DNA of 44,367 nt from Sedimentisphaerales bacterium (lineage in GTDB: Bacteria > Planctomycetota > Phycisphaerae > Sedimentisphaerales > Anaerobacaceae), in the NCBI GenBank assembly GCA_016932095.1, contig JAFGDN010000057.1, positions 1-44,367 of the forward strand, in the 5' to 3' direction. Shown here one piece after another: positions 9,463 through 34,245 of this stretch. Made by a program: the position numbers and the translations under genes. How positions within the stretch are numbered: position 1 is the first letter of the stretch; every line of letters starts with the position of its first letter. The notes under the pieces are model-generated. The model was not told the origin of the DNA. It was given only the letters and a program-made list of their open reading frames with translations, and did no database searches.

Positions 9463-9480
9463 AGTATTGGATGATTGACG

Positions 9481-9792
9481 ATGGCGATTCAAATACTTTC
9501 CAATTTAAATTATCCGATAGGCAATATCATAAATCAAGAATTGCAAAATGCCCAGATTGCACGAATGGCCGTTGCTTTCTTGAAATATTCCGGGTTAAAA
9601 GTAATTGAACAATCAATGGGGAAATGCCTCCAGAACAACGGCAGCATTGAAATTATTACGGGTTTAGATTTCAAAACAACAGATCCTCAATCGATCCATT
9701 ATATGATTAAACTTCATAGACGAACACCAAATCTGAAATTTTATTGCTATGGTGATAAAGATGAGAACAAAACGGATTTTTTTTCATCCTAA
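9481..9792 (+). CDS. PLD-family endonuclease, N-terminal part (frameshifted)
   Basis: This frame encodes the first 100 or so residues of a phospholipase-D-fold nuclease (AIQILSNLNYPIGNIINQELQNAQIARMAVAFLKYSGLKV, then IEIITGLDF). It runs into a stop just after a T8 run at 9777-9784. The continuing frame, with the HKD site, is 9749-10396. Removing one T joins them as KTDFFHPKLYLF, giving one protein of about 305 residues spanning 9481-10396. The ATG at 9481 is preferred over an in-frame TTG two codons upstream. The ribosome site is weak, so it may be coupled to the AlwI-type fragment that ends 18 bases earlier. Confidence 0.7.
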   Translation: MAIQILSNLNYPIGNIINQELQNAQIARMAVAFLKYSGLKVIEQSMGKCLQNNGSIEIITGLDFKTTDPQSIHYMIKLHRRTPNLKFYCYGDKDENKTDFFSS

Positions 9793-10396
9793 GCTATACC
9801 TTTTTCAGAATAAAAATGAAACTACTGGTATCATAGGAAGCACTAATTTGACAAGAGGAGGACTACTTACAAATTTTGAAGCAAACGTTATTTTCAAAGA
9901 GATCAAACCTATTTATTTCTCTCAATTAGAGGCCATCTATAATTCAGTAAAATTTACTGATTCCGTTTTTGCGCCCGATGAAGAATATTTGGCCGGCTAT
10001 TCAGAAGTTTACAAAGCGTTTCTTGAAAATGAAGAAAAAGCAAGTAAAGATAAAGGTGTTCAGGAAGTCATAGAACAAATTCAGAAAAGAGAACAACTAT
10101 TACCTGGTACTATTCCATCAATTAAAAGCATGATAATACAGGTTATTAAAAATAAACAGCAGCACGGAGAGAGTTTTGTCCCCTTACAAACGATTTATGA
10201 GGAAGTAGAAAAAATAGTAAAGGAGAAAAAACTTTCTTACAAAATGGATACATTTAGAAATTCTATTCATGGCGAGTTAAACAAACACGAAGTTCAAAGT
10301 AACCATCAGGATAATATGTCTTTGTTTATTCGATTATCTGAACAAAAAGGACTTTATTCTTTAACAGATAAGGGCAAAGGATATGGAGGCAGATGA
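9749..10396 (+). CDS. PLD-family (HKD) endonuclease, catalytic C-terminal part (frameshifted)
   Basis: This frame carries the HKD-type site HPKLYLFQNKN...GIIGSTNLTRGGLLTNFEANV, as in PLD-fold restriction endonucleases (BfiI/NgoFVII-like). Such enzymes cut DNA without metal and usually have one HxK...N motif per chain, working as dimers. After it come a linker with coiled-coil character (about 75-115) and a winged-helix-like C-terminal part (SMIIQVIKNKQQHGESFVPLQTIYEEVEKI to GLYSLTDKGKGYG). On its own it lacks the N-terminal half of the fold; that half is encoded in another frame at 9481-9792, separated by one extra T in a T8 run. The gene is AT-rich and lies between an AlwI-type fragment and a Bro-N gene, consistent with a transferred restriction module. 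Confidence 0.75.
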   Translation: MVIKMRTKRIFFHPKLYLFQNKNETTGIIGSTNLTRGGLLTNFEANVIFKEIKPIYFSQLEAIYNSVKFTDSVFAPDEEYLAGYSEVYKAFLENEEKASKDKGVQEVIEQIQKREQLLPGTIPSIKSMIIQVIKNKQQHGESFVPLQTIYEEVEKIVKEKKLSYKMDTFRNSIHGELNKHEVQSNHQDNMSLFIRLSEQKGLYSLTDKGKGYGGR

Positions 10397-10602: not shown

Positions 10603-11460
10603 ATGACAAATGATATTATACCTACGACAAAAATAGCTATTTTCAGAAATAAGGAAATCAGAAAAACCGTTCACAAAAACGAATGGTGGTTTTCGATAAC
10701 AGATATTATCGAGGCCCTTACCGGTAATGAAAGGCCGAGGAAATACTGGAATGACTTGAAGAAAAAGCTCATAAAAGAAGGTTATTTTGAAGTGTCCGAA
10801 AAAATCGGACAGTTGAAGTTACAGGCTCCGGACGGGAAACAACGTCTCACCGATTGCGCAAATACAGAAACACTGTTCAGGATCATTCAGACGATTCCAT
10901 CGCCGAAGGCGGAGCCGTTCAAGCGATGGCTTGCGAAGGTAGGTTATGAACGTGTCCAGGAAATTGAAGATCCCGAACTCGGAACAAAAAGGACCCGCGC
11001 TTTGTACAAAGCTAAAGGGTATCCTGATGACTGGATAGAAAAGCGTTTGCGGGGAATCGCGATACGCGAGGAATTGACAGAGGAATGGAAAAATCGCGGA
11101 GTAAAGGAAGAGCCGGAATACGCCATTCTCACCGCGGAAATCTCGAAGGCGACATTTGGACTGACGCCTTCACAATATAAACGGTTTAAAGGATTGAAGC
11201 GTGAAAATCTGCGGGACCATATGAACGACCTTGAACTGATATTCAATATGTTAGGTGAGGCGGCAACAACGGAGATAACTAGGAAGAAAGACTCGCAGGG
11301 ATTTATGGAGAACAAGGAGACAGCCCGCGAAGGAGGCGAGGTGGCGGGCAAGGCAAGAAAGGACTTAGAGTCGCGGACAGGCAAGAGAGTTGTATCTCGC
11401 GGGAATTATCTAGAGGAACCTGCGGCCAGAAAGGCATTGACGAAGAAGGATGAACGATAA
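10603..11460 (+). CDS. Bro-N domain protein, DinD-like
   Basis: This 285-residue protein starts with a Bro-N domain (about residues 10-115: KIAIFRNKEIRKTVHKNEWWFSITDIIEALTG, then RKYWNDLKKKL, LTDCANTETLFRIIQTIPSPKAEPFKRWLA). The conserved remainder ends ENKETAREGGEVAGKARKDLESRTGKRVVSRGNY, as in DinD-like bacterial proteins. Bro-N is a DNA-binding domain of viral and phage antirepressors; E. coli DinD is SOS-induced and acts on RecA filaments. The ATG follows AGGGATAAA. The gene sits just downstream of a broken restriction module; such proteins are frequent in mobile DNA. Which of DNA damage or phage regulation it serves here cannot be told from sequence. Confidence 0.85.
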   Translation: MTNDIIPTTKIAIFRNKEIRKTVHKNEWWFSITDIIEALTGNERPRKYWNDLKKKLIKEGYFEVSEKIGQLKLQAPDGKQRLTDCANTETLFRIIQTIPSPKAEPFKRWLAKVGYERVQEIEDPELGTKRTRALYKAKGYPDDWIEKRLRGIAIREELTEEWKNRGVKEEPEYAILTAEISKATFGLTPSQYKRFKGLKRENLRDHMNDLELIFNMLGEAATTEITRKKDSQGFMENKETAREGGEVAGKARKDLESRTGKRVVSRGNYLEEPAARKALTKKDER

Positions 11461-12587: not shown

Positions 12588-13832
12588 TCACGCTAATTTT
12601 TCGAGTGCTTGTTTGACAAGCCGGGCGATAGGCATACGCTGCGGGCATCGGGCCTCGGCGGCGCTGTAATCCAGACCGGCGAGCTTGTTACGAACGTCGG
12701 CGGGGATTTCAGCGAAAGCGGCTTTGGCCAGTTGCTTGTCGCCGTAGCTGTTGTGATACATCAGGGAGCGCATAACGTCGCTGATATACGGGGCCTGGGG
12801 GACGGCCTGGTCGCAGATTTCGGCGCAGCCGGCACAGTAGCCGGAGCAGGTCAGGGCCGCGTATTGCTCTAAAACCATTCTGTCATCCCGCGCCAGTTTT
12901 GTCTTGTCCAATACCGCCGCGACGTTCTCGTTTATAATCGCGACGCTGTTCATACCGACGGTCGCGGCGGCGATGCGCTCATCCTCGAGAACGACCTTGA
13001 TTTTGGCCTGGCCCTCGGTGAAGCCCTTTTCGGAGAAGTGTTCGATGAGCTTTTTGTCATTATCGGTTTCGACTGTTACGCTTTTCTGTGTCTTCATCGC
13101 GGTTAGCGCTATGCCGGCCTTGTTGCAGGCGTCGATGGCCTTTTGCATTGTTGGGTCTTTGGTCAGGCGGAAGTTGTAAGTGGTCAGGATTGCGTCAATC
13201 CAGTCGAGTTTTGAGGCATCCCAGAGGCATTTCTGCATATTTTTGTGCGTGCTGAAGCCGAAGTATTTTATCAGGCCGCGTTTCTTGGCGTCCTGTGACC
13301 AGGCCTTAAGCTCGTCTGTAAGCTGGTCTATATCGTTGAGAACATGGACGCCGTAATAGACATCAATGTAGTCGGTGTTCATTCGCTTCAGCGAGGTTTG
13401 CAGACGTTCTTCGACATCCTTCACGCTTCTGGCGCCGGAGGCCTTGGTAGCGATAAAGATTTTTTTCCTGACGTCGGGATTTTCGGCGAGGAATTTGCCG
13501 ATGCAGATTTCGCTGTTGCCGCCCGTGTAGCCATAAGCGGTGTCCCAGTAGGTAACGCCCCATTTGAGAGACGACATCAAAATGACGGGGGTATCGACAA
13601 GCTGAATAGCCCCGAGGGACAATGCTGAGACCTCCTCTTCGGACCTGCCGAATTTTCGTTTAGGGATTTGCGGGGTTTCGGTTTGCGCTGCCGGCGCCGG
13701 CTGATTCTGGTCGGGGGTATTTGGCTCATTTGGCTCCGCGAAACTCTTTGCGCCAATGACGGAGCTTATACCGGCGACGCCGATTGATTTGAGAAAGTAT
13801 CTTCTGTCAACTGTGTTACGCTCGTTTTTCAT
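12588..13832 (-). CDS. Tat-exported aldo/keto reductase with C-terminal Cys cluster
   Basis: This 414-residue protein begins with a twin-arginine signal (Arg10-Arg11 in DRRYFLKS, then a hydrophobic stretch to SFAEP). A TIM-barrel aldo/keto reductase domain follows at about 58-310. The catalytic tetrad is visible: Asp97 and Tyr102 (or Tyr100) in WDTAYGYTGG, Lys130 in IATK, and His163 in YGVHV. After the barrel a CxxxCxxCxxxC cluster (329-340, CSGYCAGCAEIC) probably binds Fe-S. Export by Tat of an aldo/keto reductase with an Fe-S tail, last in an operon with a polyferredoxin and a DUF362 protein, points to an envelope redox chain rather than cytoplasmic NADPH chemistry. Substrate unknown. Confidence 0.88.
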   Translation of the reverse strand: MKNERNTVDRRYFLKSIGVAGISSVIGAKSFAEPNEPNTPDQNQPAPAAQTETPQIPKRKFGRSEEEVSALSLGAIQLVDTPVILMSSLKWGVTYWDTAYGYTGGNSEICIGKFLAENPDVRKKIFIATKASGARSVKDVEERLQTSLKRMNTDYIDVYYGVHVLNDIDQLTDELKAWSQDAKKRGLIKYFGFSTHKNMQKCLWDASKLDWIDAILTTYNFRLTKDPTMQKAIDACNKAGIALTAMKTQKSVTVETDNDKKLIEHFSEKGFTEGQAKIKVVLEDERIAAATVGMNSVAIINENVAAVLDKTKLARDDRMVLEQYAALTCSGYCAGCAEICDQAVPQAPYISDVMRSLMYHNSYGDKQLAKAAFAEIPADVRNKLAGLDYSAAEARCPQRMPIARLVKQALEKLA

Positions 13833-13838
13833 TTTTCA

Positions 13839-15569
13839 TCACCTCAATAATAATCTTCTGTTTTTGCTTCTCGTTTCGCCTTCCGCTGAGACCCTTATCG
13901 CGCGGAGGCCGCTGACGGGACATTCGTGCTCGCAGACGCCGCAGCCGATACATTTTTCGATATCGATATAAGGCCTTTGCAGGCACACCTGAATTTCAAT
14001 TTTGCCAGTTATAAGGGGTGTTTTTTCGTCTGATACCGAAAGCCCTATCGAGTCATCGGCATTGGCGGCAATTTTTCTTCGAGCGCCGTTTTCAAACAGG
14101 ACATAATAATCGCCCGTGCCGAATTTACCAGGTATTATACGCCGGTCGATGAGAATGGTGCTGCCTGTTATACTTTTTACCAAAGCCACGCCGTCTCTGA
14201 CAGTCGAGAAGGATTCCCGTGTGTAGATTGCCTTCGGGCTGACGGGGCAGTTTTCCTGGCAGACGATGCAGGGCTTATCAAGCGACCAGGGGAGGCACCT
14301 GTTACGGTCAATGAAGGCGGTTCCGAGCTTGACTGGGCCTTTGTCGGCGAAGTCGCCTTCGCCTTTTTTCTCGTCGAGTGTGATGGGCCTGATAGCGGAG
14401 GTGGAGCAGACCTGTCCGCAGGCGACGCAATTCAACTGGCAGCCGCTTGAGCCGATGCGGTTATTCAAAGTGGGCGTCCAAAGTCCTTCGAGGCCGGCCT
14501 CGATACCTGCCGGCTGAATGACGTTTGTGGGGCAGATTCTCATACACTGGCCGCACTTGATACACCTTTTGAGAAACTCGCGCTCTTCCAGCGCGCCCGG
14601 CGGGCGAATAAGGGAGCTTTCCCAGTTTGAGGCAAGCTTGCCACTTAGCCGAACCGCTGGAACAGCGAGGACGCCGCCGGCAAGTGATAAGCAGAAACCC
14701 CTGCGTGAAACATCCGCGGGCGTTTCACCCGCCAATGACGGGACGGTCTGGTAAGCGATGAGGTTGTGTTTGCAATCGTCTCGGCAGTTAAAGCAAAGGA
14801 CACATTCGGCGATTTTGATATTGCCTGACGGTTCACAGCCGCCTTCGCAGGATTTTTCGCACAGCTTGCAGTCGATGCACTCGCTTTTGGTCTTGCCGAT
14901 GCGCCATATCGAGAACCGGCTTATTATGCCGAAAAACGCGCCGAGGGGGCATAGGAACCGGCAGTAAAACCGGGGTATTACAAGATTCAACAACACTGCC
15001 GCTGCAAAAACCGTTAGGGTAAGCCAGCCAAGCTCATAAAAACGTGCCGCAACCGAAGTCAGGTTCGTGCCTCTATCCAGAACAGGCAGCAATACCAGAT
15101 TAAATGACCGCGTTACGAGCGGAATCGGGTCAAGAAGTCCCGTCTGCAATGAGCTTGCCAGTGAAGGGAACGCGGCCATAGCTAGGAGGAAAACGAGGAT
15201 GAGGTATTTTAAGGATTGGGCCTTGCGGTATTTGTTGAGCTGAATTTTATCGCTTACTTTTTTACTTCGATTGCCGAGGTAACCGACGAAATGATGAATC
15301 GAGCCGAATGGACAAACCCAGCCGCAGAAAAACCTGCCGAAGATTATCGTTACGATGACCATCCCCAGTGCACAATGCAAAGGCCAGTAAAATTTGCCTG
15401 TTGATAGTATGGTACCCAGAGCGACAAGCGGGTCGAGCTGTAAAATCCAGTTAATCGGCCAGTTCCGGATTTGCCAGAATTTTTCCCCGACCGTGGCGAC
15501 GATGCAGAACCACACAAACAGGGCGAAGAAGAACAACTGGCTTATCCGTCTTACTGTCGTAATTTTCAT
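13839..15569 (-). CDS. NapH/NapG-like membrane polyferredoxin with internal twin-arginine segment
   Basis: This 576-residue protein has a membrane half with segments near 12-28, 64-84, 120-138 and 180-198, and two CxxxCP motifs (CGWVCP 82-87, CRFLCP 203-208), as in NapH/MauN/RdxA. Two 4Fe-4S clusters follow: 231-245 (CIDCKLCEKSCEGGC) and 256-266. At 288-308 is SRRGFCLSLAGGVLAVPAV, a Tat-like signal in the middle of the chain. A NapG-like half follows with further clusters at 336-346, 377-388, 425-441 and 540-550. It looks like a fusion of a quinol-oxidising NapH-type subunit and an outer ferredoxin. It lies 7 bases after the DUF362 gene and 6 bases before the Tat reductase. Confidence 0.85.
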   Translation of the reverse strand: MKITTVRRISQLFFFALFVWFCIVATVGEKFWQIRNWPINWILQLDPLVALGTILSTGKFYWPLHCALGMVIVTIIFGRFFCGWVCPFGSIHHFVGYLGNRSKKVSDKIQLNKYRKAQSLKYLILVFLLAMAAFPSLASSLQTGLLDPIPLVTRSFNLVLLPVLDRGTNLTSVAARFYELGWLTLTVFAAAVLLNLVIPRFYCRFLCPLGAFFGIISRFSIWRIGKTKSECIDCKLCEKSCEGGCEPSGNIKIAECVLCFNCRDDCKHNLIAYQTVPSLAGETPADVSRRGFCLSLAGGVLAVPAVRLSGKLASNWESSLIRPPGALEEREFLKRCIKCGQCMRICPTNVIQPAGIEAGLEGLWTPTLNNRIGSSGCQLNCVACGQVCSTSAIRPITLDEKKGEGDFADKGPVKLGTAFIDRNRCLPWSLDKPCIVCQENCPVSPKAIYTRESFSTVRDGVALVKSITGSTILIDRRIIPGKFGTGDYYVLFENGARRKIAANADDSIGLSVSDEKTPLITGKIEIQVCLQRPYIDIEKCIGCGVCEHECPVSGLRAIRVSAEGETRSKNRRLLLR

Positions 15570-15576
15570 GTTATTT

Positions 15577-16590
15577 TCAGGTAACCTCGGCCCTCAATGG
15601 TTTGAGTGATTCGTAATCGGCTGTTCCTGCGCCGGCCTTTTCGGCAAGGGCTAAATACGGTAAATCCGCGGGTTTGCGGTTCAGGAGGGAACAGCCGAAG
15701 GCGTCGGCGGCGACCATATCGGCGGATGCAATCATCGTATTAGTTTTTTTAAGGTCCGAAACCGACCCGCCCGTCGGGCCGTTGGTCATCATTGTCGTTG
15801 TGCCGTCCAAGAGCACAAATGTCGGTTTTACAAGCATTGAAAGCTCGGCAATGATTGTGTTAATGTCCTGGTGGAAAATGTTGCGCCTGCCGCCTAAAAG
15901 CCCATACCAGTTTTTCATACTCATCGACGCGGCGCTGCGATGATGGTCTTTTACGGGGCCTATGCCGATGAGCTTGTTTGCGTCTTCAAGCGGGGCGGTG
16001 AAAACGGGGTAATCCTTAATCAGAACCCCGCCGTCGAGGGTGATATTACTGAACAGGTTATCTTTCGGCATCACGACGTCAGCGCCGGCCAAAGTTGCGG
16101 CCTTGCCAATGCCGCTTATCGCAAAACAGCTTGCGGGGTCGTTTATCGGGTTATCGGTAACAATGACTTTTTTGGCCCGCCCCCTGTCGTAACACAGCCG
16201 AATGACCGCGGCAACCACGTCGGGGTGGGCGGTTGCGCCCAAAAAAGCAGGCGAGGCGAAAGCAACGTTGGGTTTGATAACGACGACGTCGCCAGGCGAG
16301 ATAAAGCGTTCTATGCCGCCCAACAAATCGATTGCCTTATTAACGGTTTTGGTTCTGTCGCTGCCCTGCACGATTGAAAGCGTTTGTCCGTTTTTTCGGG
16401 GCACTGCAAGATCAGGCAATTGCTGAAGGTTTGCACGTGTTTCTACATCGCCATTTGGTCCATTACGGTCATAAAGCCAATAAGCGATACTGCCTGCGGC
16501 GGCGATTGACGCAGCCGCTTTTACGCCGCGGGCGAGCAATTGTCTGCGACCGAAATTGGTTTGGTTCTGGTCAGCCACCTGTTTTCTCAC
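15577..16590 (-). CDS. DUF362 domain protein with Tat-type signal
   Basis: This 337-residue protein has a twin-arginine N-terminus (Arg15-Arg16, GRRQLLARG, then an Ala-rich hydrophobic stretch to about residue 40). A DUF362 domain covers about 65-330 (DVVVIKPNVAFASP, TDNPINDPASCF, SGIGKAATLAGADVV, SMKNWYGLLGGRRNIFH). DUF362 proteins often carry or accompany Fe-S clusters and are poorly characterised; here few Cys remain, so the cluster function may sit in the neighbouring polyferredoxin. It overlaps the upstream DUF6599 gene by 20 bases, so the two are tightly coupled in one operon. Its partner proteins suggest an exported redox complex. Confidence 0.85.
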   Translation of the reverse strand: MRKQVADQNQTNFGRRQLLARGVKAAASIAAAGSIAYWLYDRNGPNGDVETRANLQQLPDLAVPRKNGQTLSIVQGSDRTKTVNKAIDLLGGIERFISPGDVVVIKPNVAFASPAFLGATAHPDVVAAVIRLCYDRGRAKKVIVTDNPINDPASCFAISGIGKAATLAGADVVMPKDNLFSNITLDGGVLIKDYPVFTAPLEDANKLIGIGPVKDHHRSAASMSMKNWYGLLGGRRNIFHQDINTIIAELSMLVKPTFVLLDGTTTMMTNGPTGGSVSDLKKTNTMIASADMVAADAFGCSLLNRKPADLPYLALAEKAGAGTADYESLKPLRAEVT

Positions 16591-17512
16591 TAATTTTATT
16601 AAGATGTTCGAACAAAACCGCCGCAGCTTTTATTGCCGAGTCCCTGTCGTCGGCCTCGTGAACACCGGCGATGAAATATCCCGCGGCGAAAACGATTTCT
16701 GTGCCGCCGTAAAAATCCAGAACGTTCGGGTCGATAACCTTTGCGCCGTTGGCCACCAAAAAGTCGGTATAGTTTTTGGCGACCGCACGTGCGTCATCTG
16801 AATTATTACGTTTGCTGAAGAAAATCGTTACAGTTTTTCCATCGGCATTAAATTTCGCGGAGTAAGTATCTGACAGGCCGTCGAAGGCGAAGGCGTCTTT
16901 AAGCTGAAGCTGCCAGCTTCCCGCAATAGTGCCGGGCGGGAAAAGTGTTATATCTTCTATCTCGTCTTTTTCATCATAGGGCAACTCGGCGAGCAGCTTT
17001 TTGGCGAGGATTTTCATTGCGTCGATAATCTCCTGCGACTCCGCGAAACCGACCATTTCGACATAATATTTGCCATAGGAAAAATATACGCCATTGGTTG
17101 TTTGATAGCCGAACTGCAATTCATTAAGGTCAATGACATCAGCCCTTTTTTGCCTGCTGTAAACAGAAAAGGCGTTTCTGGAATTACCCATATCAAAGGT
17201 GTAATGCTCAAAGCCAAGCTCGGCATTTACCGTATGGGCAAAGCGCTGAGTGGCCAGCGATTCAAAGCCGGCATCCTGATACATAGGGGCCTTGCCATCG
17301 ATTTTTTCGTAGAGGTTATCCGTATCATATGTTTCGGCTTCGCCAACAGGTAGAAAACCGCCTGTTTGCTGTCCCGATTCGGCCCCGAACCTCGCCAAAT
17401 CAAACAGCGACTGGATTACCAGAAGCACCGCCACGATTAAGACAAGGTGAAACAAATACAGGGTTCCGACGGCAGATTCAAATTTTCCGGCACGACCGGG
17501 GAGTAAACGCAT
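16571..17512 (-). CDS. DUF6599-type envelope protein, first gene of the redox operon
   Basis: This 313-residue protein has one membrane segment near the N-terminus (about 17-38) and a long external domain containing GEAETYDTDNLYEKIDGKAPMYQDAGFESLATQRF, which matches DUF6599 proteins found next to DUF362 and polyferredoxin genes. It heads a four-gene operon reading DUF6599, DUF362, polyferredoxin, Tat aldo/keto reductase, all with overlaps or gaps of 7 bases or less. The perfect consensus promoter at 17557-17585 lies upstream, giving a leader of about 37 bases. Its biochemical role is unknown; the single membrane anchor suggests a scaffold or receptor on the outer face. Confidence 0.75.
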   Translation of the reverse strand: MRLLPGRAGKFESAVGTLYLFHLVLIVAVLLVIQSLFDLARFGAESGQQTGGFLPVGEAETYDTDNLYEKIDGKAPMYQDAGFESLATQRFAHTVNAELGFEHYTFDMGNSRNAFSVYSRQKRADVIDLNELQFGYQTTNGVYFSYGKYYVEMVGFAESQEIIDAMKILAKKLLAELPYDEKDEIEDITLFPPGTIAGSWQLQLKDAFAFDGLSDTYSAKFNADGKTVTIFFSKRNNSDDARAVAKNYTDFLVANGAKVIDPNVLDFYGGTEIVFAAGYFIAGVHEADDRDSAIKAAAVLFEHLNKISEKTGG

Positions 17513-17556: not shown

Positions 17557-17585
17557 ATTATACGTTTCCTGACCGGGTCTGTCAA
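17557..17585 (-). promoter_or_regulatory. Perfect consensus sigma70 promoter of the redox operon
   Basis: On the minus strand: TTGACA (17585-17580), exactly 17 bases, TATAAT (17562-17557). Transcription would start near 17550 and the first gene begins at 17512. Both hexamers match the consensus completely, unlike any other promoter in the window. Confidence 0.8.
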
Positions 17586-17623: not shown

Positions 17624-18499
17624 ATGTTCGAACGGCTCATAGCGGCTATAACAGGGCCAACCTTTTGGGGCATTGTTTTAATCGCGATTATCCTGCTGGG
17701 CGCATCGGCCCAGGCGCTGACCCGGAAAAGCGGGCTTAAAATCGCTTTGTGCCAGATATTCATCGTCGACGGCGACAGGCAGGGCAACTTCACCCGGATT
17801 GAAAACGCAATCATTGAGGCCACATCGAAGGGCGCCTCAATAGTGTGTTTTCCCGAGGCATCGATGCTGGGCTGGCTTAATTCGGACGCTTATACGAGGG
17901 CGTGCACAATTCCCGGGCCGGACAGCGACCAGCTTTGTGCGCTTGCGAAAAAATACGCGGTGTTCCTGTGTATCGGGATTGAGGAGATAAAAAGCGGCCG
18001 ATTACATAACAGTGCGGTTGTCATCAGTGACCAGGGCGACATTATTCTCAAGCATCGCCAGGTAAACGTTCCCGAAAAGCTTATGAGTCCCCCTTACACG
18101 CCGGGCGCGGATGTTGATATCTGTACAGTAAAAACGCGATTTGGCCGGATTGGGGTGCTGGTTTGTGCGGACACACACAGCGATTGCCTTCTCAAACGGA
18201 TGGCGAATTTGAAGCCGGACCTGCTTTTGGTTCCTTACGGTTATGCCGAGGATGAGGCAAAATGGCCTGCTCATGGGCAGGAGTTTATGCGTATAGTGGT
18301 TAATGCCGCGACAACGACAAAAGCCAACGTGGTCGGGACAAACCTCGTGGGCCGAATAATAAAAGGCCCCTGGTCGGGCAAGATTTTTGGGGGCCAAAGC
18401 GTGGCGGTTGACAAAACGGGCAAAATCTTAGCCGTTGCCAAAGACCGCGACCGGGATATAAAGATTATATCAATAAACACTGCCATGCAATCGCTTTAG
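17624..18499 (+). CDS. Carbon-nitrogen hydrolase (nitrilase superfamily), membrane-anchored
   Basis: This 291-residue protein belongs to the nitrilase/amidase superfamily. The Glu-Lys-Cys triad is visible as Glu78 (CFPEAS), Lys143 (ILKHRQ) and Cys181 (GVLVCADTH). An N-terminal hydrophobic segment (about 13-33) is not part of the usual fold and would anchor the enzyme to the inner membrane, perhaps facing outside. The substrate cannot be told; nitrilase-fold enzymes hydrolyse amides, carbamoyl groups or act as amide ligases. It is divergent from the redox operon (111-base gap) and precedes tatA. The assigned ATG at 17624 has GAGG about 4 bases upstream. Confidence 0.85.
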   Translation: MFERLIAAITGPTFWGIVLIAIILLGASAQALTRKSGLKIALCQIFIVDGDRQGNFTRIENAIIEATSKGASIVCFPEASMLGWLNSDAYTRACTIPGPDSDQLCALAKKYAVFLCIGIEEIKSGRLHNSAVVISDQGDIILKHRQVNVPEKLMSPPYTPGADVDICTVKTRFGRIGVLVCADTHSDCLLKRMANLKPDLLLVPYGYAEDEAKWPAHGQEFMRIVVNAATTTKANVVGTNLVGRIIKGPWSGKIFGGQSVAVDKTGKILAVAKDRDRDIKIISINTAMQSL

Positions 18500-18595: not shown

Positions 18596-18865
18596 ATGAC
18601 TGAATATAACCAATGTTTGGCTATCTGGACACCTGGGCCGCTTGAGATAATAATAATAGCCGTCATAGCCCTGTTATTGTTCGGAAGGCGCCTTCCAGAA
18701 ATTGCCCGTAACCTCGGCCGAAGCTTAACGGAGTTTAAGAAAGGTCTGCACGAGGCGAATCAGGCAAAGGACGAGGTCGAAAACGACGTGCAAAAGGCCA
18801 AGGACGACATCGTGAAGGACATCAAGGACGCCACCGGTTCTGATAATCACGGCGATAAAGATTAA
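18596..18865 (+). CDS. tatA: Sec-independent translocase subunit TatA/TatB
   Basis: This 89-residue protein has the TatA layout: a short N-terminal membrane segment (about 14-30, [16 protein letters not shown]), a hinge ([11 protein letters not shown]), an amphipathic helix ([13 protein letters not shown]) and a charged tail. With TatC it forms the twin-arginine pore that exports folded, often cofactor-loaded proteins. It is preceded by AAAGGGAG and followed by tatC after a hairpin. The nearby operon encodes two Tat-tagged proteins and a protein with an internal Tat-like segment, which are natural clients. Confidence 0.93.
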
Positions 18866-18916: not shown

Positions 18917-19696
18917 ATGAGCGGCACGAGAAAGCAATACGACCCTGCTAATGGCTCAACTATGAGTTTGGGAGACCATCTCGAAGAGTTGCGCGCCCGT
19001 ATTATCCTCGCCTTGGCGGGACTGGCGCTGGGCCTGATAGTGTGTTTAATCCTGGGAGGATGGATAGTTCGTTTTATTGAAAGGCCCTACGTCAGGATAA
19101 TGGGTGAGCAGACCCGTCTTCAGGCGCTGGGGCCCACGGACGGATTCATCTGCTATATGCAGATAGCGCTTATCAGCGGACTTATTCTTTCCTCGCCATG
19201 GGTGTTTTATCAACTGTGGATGTTCGTCGCCGCGGGTCTTTATCCCCACGAAAAAAAATACGTTTACACGGCCATACCTTTTATAGCATTTCTTTTCATC
19301 ACAGGAGCAATGTTTTTTATGTTTGTAATCGGACCGGTGGGGCTGACTTTTTTGATAAAATTCAATCAGGAGTTTCTGGGAGTGGCGTCGAATTTTACGT
19401 TCAAGAATTACGTTTCTTTTATAGCGCTTATGATGCTGGTTTTCGGCCTGGGCTTTCAGATGCCGCTGGTAATCTTTCTTTTGATTAAGACCGGAATCGT
19501 AAGCACGGATACTCTTCGAAAGTCAAGAAAGTTTGTAATCCTGACGGTCGTTATAATAGCGGCGGTTGCCACGCCGGGACCTGACCCGTTTTCCCAGTTG
19601 GCATTGGCAATCCCGCTTTACGGGCTTTTCGAGCTTGGCATATTACTGGCCGGATTATCCGAACGGCATAAAACGAACGAAAAAAGATTTACATAA
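18917..19696 (+). CDS. tatC: Sec-independent translocase subunit TatC
   Basis: This 259-residue protein carries the TatC features: the N-terminal signal-recognition motif LGDHLEELRARI (about 17-28), six membrane segments, the periplasmic loop with GPTDGFICYMQIALISGLI, SSPWVFYQLWMFVAAGLYPHEKKY, and the C-terminal ATPGPDPFSQLALAIPLYGLFELGI. TatC binds the RR signal and docks TatA. The ribosome site is poor (TCAAGTCGCA), which together with the upstream hairpin suggests low expression relative to tatA, matching the usual protein ratio. Confidence 0.95.
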   Translation: MSGTRKQYDPANGSTMSLGDHLEELRARIILALAGLALGLIVCLILGGWIVRFIERPYVRIMGEQTRLQALGPTDGFICYMQIALISGLILSSPWVFYQLWMFVAAGLYPHEKKYVYTAIPFIAFLFITGAMFFMFVIGPVGLTFLIKFNQEFLGVASNFTFKNYVSFIALMMLVFGLGFQMPLVIFLLIKTGIVSTDTLRKSRKFVILTVVIIAAVATPGPDPFSQLALAIPLYGLFELGILLAGLSERHKTNEKRFT

Positions 19697-33207: not shown

Positions 33208-34245
33208 ATGAAGCCAAACAGACGGCAAATCCTGGCAGGCGTTGTCGCGGGCCTGTGCCTTATTGCGGCGGCTTACTATGTCGGCAAATTTATCGACAGG
33301 CCCGCGCAGGTTGACGGCGGTTACCGCCAGGTAATGGGCACGTTCGCCCGAATCGTAGCCGTGGCAAACAAACCCCGCCAGGCCCGAACCTGTATCGAGG
33401 CGGGCTTCGACGAGATAAGACGAATTGAAGCCGTTTGTAGCGCCTTCAAAGCCGATTCGGAGCTTAGCAAAATTAACCGCGAGGCGTTTAACGGCCCGGT
33501 CAAGGTAAGCCCAGAGCTTTTTGGGCTCTTGCGGAAAAGCGTTGAATACAGCAAGTTATCGAACGGCGCTTTCGATATCACAGTCGGGCCTGTGGTTGAC
33601 CTTTGGCGAAAGGCAGGCGAGGCAAATTCAATGCCCGGTGCCGAGGCGCTTGCCGAGGCAAAATCGCGCGTCGGCTATGAAAAGCTGCTCCTCGATGCTA
33701 ACACGCAGACCATACGATTTGCCGTTGCCGGTATGCGCCTCGATTTAGGCGGGATTGCCAAGGGCTACTCGGTCGATAACGCGGTTGAAATAATGCGGCA
33801 AAAAGGCGCAATCGCCGGTATGGTCGATGCAGGCGGCAATATATACTGTTTCGGCAAGCCCCTCGATAAAGCCGTGTGGCTGGTTGGGGTTCAGGACCCC
33901 AATTTAGAGAACAGCGAGCCGTTGATGGTTTTGAAATTACAGGATTATGCTGTTGCGACAAGCGGGGATTACAGGCGTTTTGTTACAATCGCCGGCAGAA
34001 AGGTCAGCCATATTATTGATACCATGACCGCCACAGGGGCGAATAAACTGGCAGGCGATACGATAATCGCCAAAACCGCGATGGAGGCCGACGCGATTTC
34101 GACCGCCGTCAACGTTTTAGGACCCGAAAAAGGCCTTGCCCTGATTGAATCCTTCGCTGATGTCGAATGTATCCTGATAACCGCCGGGCCTGAGTATCGG
34201 GTTGTCAAGAGCAGCGGAGCGAATAGTTACATAATGGAGAATTGA
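33208..34245 (+). CDS. apbE: FAD:protein FMN transferase
   Basis: ApbE transfers FMN from FAD to a threonine in flavoproteins such as RnfG/NqrC-type subunits. The 345-residue protein has a membrane segment at about 8-25, so it acts outside the cytoplasm. Motifs VMGTFARIV, FKADSELSKINR, FDITVGPVVDLWR, LDLGGIAKGYSVD, VDAGGNIYCFG, TSGDYRRF, HIIDTMTA and ADAISTA are family hallmarks. No client flavoprotein with the S(T)GAT signature was spotted in the window. The membrane-anchored redox operon at 12.6-17.5 kb shows the same envelope redox theme but is not evidence of a link. No ribosome site; see the -10 box 10 bases upstream. Confidence 0.93.
   Translation: MKPNRRQILAGVVAGLCLIAAAYYVGKFIDRPAQVDGGYRQVMGTFARIVAVANKPRQARTCIEAGFDEIRRIEAVCSAFKADSELSKINREAFNGPVKVSPELFGLLRKSVEYSKLSNGAFDITVGPVVDLWRKAGEANSMPGAEALAEAKSRVGYEKLLLDANTQTIRFAVAGMRLDLGGIAKGYSVDNAVEIMRQKGAIAGMVDAGGNIYCFGKPLDKAVWLVGVQDPNLENSEPLMVLKLQDYAVATSGDYRRFVTIAGRKVSHIIDTMTATGANKLAGDTIIAKTAMEADAISTAVNVLGPEKGLALIESFADVECILITAGPEYRVVKSSGANSYIMEN

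Follow-up and report, generated by a model that had tools for sequence, protein, structure and literature searches.

Four minus-strand open reading frames lie closely packed between positions 12588 and 17512 of the window (the whole 44,367-nucleotide stretch of DNA that was analysed), encoding, in gene order, a DUF6599 protein, a Tat-tagged DUF362 protein, a fused NapH-NapG polyferredoxin (PFD), and a Tat-tagged aldo/keto reductase (AKR). The same set had been proposed from a reading of the sequence alone, and each member was located as an open reading frame and recognized by Pfam (DUF6599, 1.5e-34; DUF362, 4.3e-39; Fer4_5 and Fer4 domains in the PFD; and Aldo_ket_red, 1.1e-23, in the AKR). 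The genes and their surroundings, by window position, are as follows:

12588 to 13832, minus strand: Tat-tagged AKR, 414 aa, with the tetrad D97, Y102, K130, and H163 and a predicted one-cluster tail (C333, C336, C340, C396)
13839 to 15569, minus strand: PFD, a fused NapH-NapG protein of 576 aa (Pfam, NapH/NapG models, motif conservation)
15577 to 16590, minus strand: DUF362 protein, 337 aa, GTG start, with a Tat signal (R15 R16) and a predicted LarA-type fold (Pfam, motif, AF2 model)
16571 to 17512, minus strand: DUF6599 protein, 313 aa, with one N-terminal membrane helix followed by two alpha/beta domains
17557 to 17585, minus strand: perfect sigma-70 promoter (TTGACA-N17-TATAAT), 44 nt 5' of the DUF6599 start
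17624 to 18499, plus strand, divergent: carbon-nitrogen hydrolase (nitrilase-type, by Pfam) with an N-terminal membrane helix
18596 to 18865, plus strand, divergent: TatA, a neighbour in Planctomycetota only
18917 to 19696, plus strand, divergent: TatC, a neighbour in Planctomycetota only

The spacing is as tight as the sequence-only reading had held, with a 20-nt overlap between the DUF6599 and DUF362 genes followed by gaps of 7 nt (DUF362-PFD) and 6 nt (PFD-AKR). The promoter is the sole 12/12 site in the 44-kb window, sites scoring 11-12/12 recur no more than 200 nt upstream of the DUF6599 gene in 15 of 17 relatives, and a scan of the coding strand inside the window's operon revealed no promoter-like sites. 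As for the earlier description of a Tat-linked Fe-S redox operon, the single operon, the Tat export, the NapH/NapG-like polyferredoxin, and the Fe-S AKR were all supported, while the Fe-S ligand set had been misread.

The tatA and tatC genes do lie just beyond the cassette, as had been remarked, starting at 18596 and 18917 with the nitrilase-type gene standing between them and the cassette. Inclusion of TatAC in the module was considered and rejected, because this neighbourhood recurs in Planctomycetota relatives and is absent beside the Desulfobacterota cassettes; the hydrolase, which is conserved in near relatives only, likewise falls outside the module. Elsewhere in the window, the gene at 33208-34245, 16 kb from the cassette, encodes an ApbE-family flavin transferase that carries a membrane segment at its N-terminus (ApbE-type enzymes flavinylate exported redox proteins). 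At 9475-10396, two overlapping frames (9475-9792 and 9749-10396, the second matching PF13091) may be the halves of a single PLD-like protein, with a possible frameshift between them, beside a Bro-N gene at 10603-11460.

Conservation of the four-gene order

For a distant survey, genome contigs were scanned with a profile of the PFD alignment, 328 relatives were confirmed, and the best 80 loci were analysed, with DUF6599, DUF362, and AKR placed around each PFD by HMMs built in this analysis. The order DUF6599-DUF362-PFD-AKR on one strand was found in 54 of these 80 loci and, among the 62 whose contigs reach far enough on both sides, in 47, counts that are biased upward by the selection of loci for PFD similarity. 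Thirty-nine of the 47 (still among the best 80 of 328) lie outside the Planctomycetota, so that the conservation across this phylum which the sequence-only reading had proposed to look for was not only found but exceeded. Judged by record title, the full order extends to Planctomycetota, Desulfobacterota-type Deltaproteobacteria, Verrucomicrobiota, Sumerlaeota, Lentisphaerota, Myxococcota, and Gemmatimonadota, with the proviso that many of the loci come from metagenome bins, for which single phylum assignments may be wrong, and several from cultured strains; a Neomarinimicrobiota locus (L174) holds three of the four genes. Cultured or named sulfate reducers with the full cassette include Desulfosarcina alkanivorans, Solidesulfovibrio aerotolerans, Desulfacinum infernum, and Desulforhabdus sp. 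TSK. Median spacings are about -7, +10, and +33 nt (31 cassettes, measured from HMM ends), and conservation of the gene order is far beyond chance. At survey loci where the AKR is missing, the genes following the PFD are unrelated and no alternative terminal enzyme was found; around the Desulfobacterota loci, no constant outer partners were detected beyond scattered thiamine-type and other genes. A FastTree phylogeny of the PFD, in which one row (L166) sits on a very long branch and is of unsure placement, groups mostly by phylum but needs 13 label changes where 9 would be the minimum, which leaves room for a few transfers.

Co-occurrence was surveyed closer to home in 61 related genomes, one per species. 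With cut-offs set after the scores were known (AKR, E < about 1e-90; PFD, > about 370 bits), 29 genomes carry both AKR and PFD, 2 the AKR only, 1 the PFD only, and 29 neither (Fisher 6e-14), while PFD and DUF362 occur together in 28, PFD only in 2, DUF362 only in none, and neither in 31 (Fisher 2e-15), p-values that are overstated since related genomes are not independent. AKR and PFD are thus gained or lost jointly across these genomes. Alternatively, the four genes may share a neighbourhood but no pathway, kept together by horizontal transfer or genomic inertia. This would accommodate the few genomes (G142, G169, G186) in which either the AKR or a strong PFD match is present without the other, as well as the existence of solo AKR copies; yet one order with close spacing across seven phyla, the joint loss, and the fusion of DUF6599 to PFD-type proteins leave it a very small probability. 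Given one order in many phyla, the four genes almost certainly act as a unit.

The polyferredoxin, DUF6599, and DUF362

The PFD combines a membrane part, bearing two cytoplasmic [4Fe-4S] motifs and the paired NapH cysteines, with four exported [4Fe-4S] motifs, and all of these motif cysteines are invariant in 27 sequences. An internal twin-arginine, R289-R290 in DVSRRGFCLSLAGGVLAVPA, lies before the last membrane helix and is kept in nearly all of 30 relatives. The NapH/NapG likeness noted earlier is supported by tandem matches to the napH and NapG models, though these remain below the curated cut-offs (75 bits against 213 needed for NapH/MauN, and 63 against 269 for NapG). By its internal twin-arginine and its four outward and NapH-type motifs, the PFD is assigned to the Sec/Tat dual-targeted polyferredoxin family, for which the architecture has been described, membrane targeting has been tested by reporter fusions, and Tat-dependent export has been demonstrated experimentally for one member (Tooke et al., 2017; PMC5449189). 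The MLMS-1-type protein of that study shares with the PFD the NapH-NapG fusion, the twin-arginine right before the last helix, and the four outward [4Fe-4S] motifs; the study concerns membrane insertion only, and as "DUF362" and "aldo" are absent from its main text, the partners described here are additional. The cassette also resembles NapGH and flavinylated NapH-like systems in joining a NapH membrane module to an exported oxidoreductase, but differs from them in the fusion of NapH with NapG and in its AKR partner, a term absent from the main text of the relevant survey (PMC8238504). Pfam detected no FMN-binding domain in the cassette.

The AF2 model of DUF6599 (pLDDT 93.3) resembles, in its first half, the PknH sensor domain (Z 12.0) and RseB-type domains. 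As family f48 and G138 carry DUF6599 as a C-terminal extension of a NapH-NapG polyferredoxin, and as DUF6599 adjoins an AKR without a PFD in L066, L068, and L073, it appears to link the two, and is probably a membrane-anchored periplasmic scaffold or docking protein. Such C-terminal fusions to NapH-NapG-type polyferredoxins, at L076, L077, L080, and L082 (G138, G049, G122, and G106), stand beside rpsO-/pnp-like genes, and in G088 a DUF362 gene lies directly upstream of a polyferredoxin-DUF6599 fusion.

The twin-arginine of DUF362 (R15/R16) is present in 64 of 64 relatives. Sequence-based searches yielded no usable match of DUF362 or DUF6599 to solved structures; in the AF2 model of DUF362 (pLDDT 93.8), a lactate-racemase (LarA) fold is recognized, with LarA entries at Z 15-17 over about 206 residues and the next unrelated fold at 5.5. 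The shared portion is the N-terminal domain of LarA (5huq, 9eid), whereas DUF362 is without the LarA C-terminal domain, is exported, and shows no co-occurrence with biosynthesis of the nickel-pincer nucleotide (NPN). An NPN cofactor was suggested by this fold together with the invariant H216, K226, and H240, the spacing of which is close to that of H174/K184/H200 in LarA under manual gapless anchoring, and DUF362 could on these grounds be the real enzyme of the operon, a LarA-like hydride-transfer protein using NPN, for which the AKR and PFD would serve as redox partners. Membership of DUF362 and LarA in the same Pfam clan (PMC11770544) and the presence of LarC in the window's genome lend themselves to this proposal, to which we assign a very small probability: the hhalign alignment of DUF362 to LarA falls short of significance and places K184 opposite R236 rather than K226, and LarC occurs in 13 of 30 PFD-positive against 11 of 31 PFD-negative genomes (Fisher p = 0.6), being missing from 17 of the 30 and from some cassette-bearing genomes estimated to be 95-98 percent complete. 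An NPN requirement for DUF362 was rejected on this lack of co-occurrence, and the nickel-pincer idea is not needed by the data. The window's genome also encodes a distant Lar_N relative (G000:C43:107861-108334, L207), with the LarC gene on another contig (L206).

The aldo/keto reductase and its Fe-S tail

All 69 AKR relatives match the PF00248 barrel profile, and the tetrad is kept nearly throughout (D97 in 69/69, Y102 in 67/69, K130 in 69/69, and H163 in 68/69); barrel and tetrad together place the protein in the aldo/keto reductase superfamily, which is usually regarded as purely NAD(P)H-dependent. In the tail, C333, C336, and C340 are cysteine in every one of the 69 sequences and the distal C396 in 68, and these four residues are the putative ligands of a single [4Fe-4S] cluster. 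The CxxxCxxCxxxC tail read earlier did not hold, as its first cysteine (C329) is kept in only 24 of the 69 and the fourth ligand would instead be C396. AKRs with two-cluster ferredoxin tails, like those at L068 and L073, share the barrel, the C-terminal Fe-S tail, and the Tat signal with the cassette AKR, but have two clusters, where the cassette AKRs would have a single cluster plus the PFD; the comparison suggests that one cluster has been lost in the latter.

In related genomes, a single PFD is often followed by two or three AKR genes in tandem, and decayed copies (a split second copy in G149, and one with an internal stop in G151) point to copies being gained and lost. Second copies at L088 (9640-10867) and at G151:C22:181156-182403 are interrupted, either by a change of frame or by an internal TGA. 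Solo paralogs with the same Fe-S tail, apart from any PFD within the stretch examined, occur at L119-L121, L094, L095, L097, L100, and L106, and the catalytic His (H163) is Tyr in those of L119 and L121.

In 67 of 69 relatives, Asn is retained at the position usual for the adenine site (N303), which suggests that the AKR may still hold NADP(H). Nothing that could switch between one- and two-electron transfer, such as a flavin, can be seen between the one-electron cluster and the AKR, which transfers hydride, and the cluster could therefore have a structural role. An exported AKR with tightly bound NADP(H) might then be a self-contained dismutase or isomerase, for which glucose-fructose oxidoreductase provides a model, and the PFD would only assemble or reductively repair the cluster. 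Conservation of D97, Y102, K130, and H163 along with N303, the missing switch, and the Tat pathway itself, which exports proteins folded and cofactor-loaded, all fit such an enzyme; nevertheless, we consider it unlikely, since the AKR tracks the PFD almost perfectly and is its sole recurrent downstream partner, which is more than a maturation helper needs, and since four exported clusters suggest sustained electron flow.

A candidate link between the quinone pool and exported aldo/keto reductases

Beyond the conserved gene order, co-occurrence, motifs, folds, and promoter, our favoured reading, held with somewhat better than even confidence, is that the four genes form a cross-phylum, self-contained operon for an exported oxidoreductase tied to the respiratory chain, with the PFD as the coupling between exported AKRs and the quinone pool. 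On its NapH side, the PFD would exchange electrons with the quinone pool of the membrane; it would move them over the four outward-facing [4Fe-4S] clusters, and give them to, or take them from, the Tat-exported AKRs through a putative contact with the single tail [4Fe-4S] cluster. The membrane-anchored DUF6599 would most likely act as the docking site that brings DUF362 and the AKR to the PFD. DUF362, an exported partner with a LarA fold, may bind substrate or cofactor. That one PFD is accompanied by several AKR copies, tandem or scattered, suggests a single electron conduit for several substrates. The model has a gap at the one-electron-to-hydride step in the AKR.

The sequence is compatible with either direction of flow, quinol to reductase or oxidase to quinone. 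Outward flow, with the AKR as a reductase, receives a slight leaning, and characterised NapGH systems run outward. With a potential of about -75 mV, menaquinol is poorly suited to reducing carbonyls near -200 mV, and most carbonyl reductions would need energy input, which counts against simple outward flow. Inward flow, with the AKR as a dehydrogenase feeding quinone, is put a little short of even, and NapH-like modules serve both reductases and oxidases (PMC8238504).

A search of the open-access literature found no description of the four-gene cassette, in agreement with the earlier impression that the module is uncharacterised, though it may be described elsewhere. Occurrence of the full cassette in cultured or named sulfate reducers renders the proposal testable. 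More tentatively, the cassette could represent a new respiratory enzyme class, in which AKRs outside the cell membrane, free of the NAD(P)H-dependent cytoplasm, are quinone-linked via a polyferredoxin, with one conduit for several AKRs. The enzymes known to be served by NapH-like modules act on nitrate, nitrous oxide, organohalides, and alcohols; if true, a cassette connecting AKRs with the quinone pool would add aldo/keto reductases to the enzymes so served, and it gives a context to DUF362, DUF6599, and a polyferredoxin so far studied for its targeting only.
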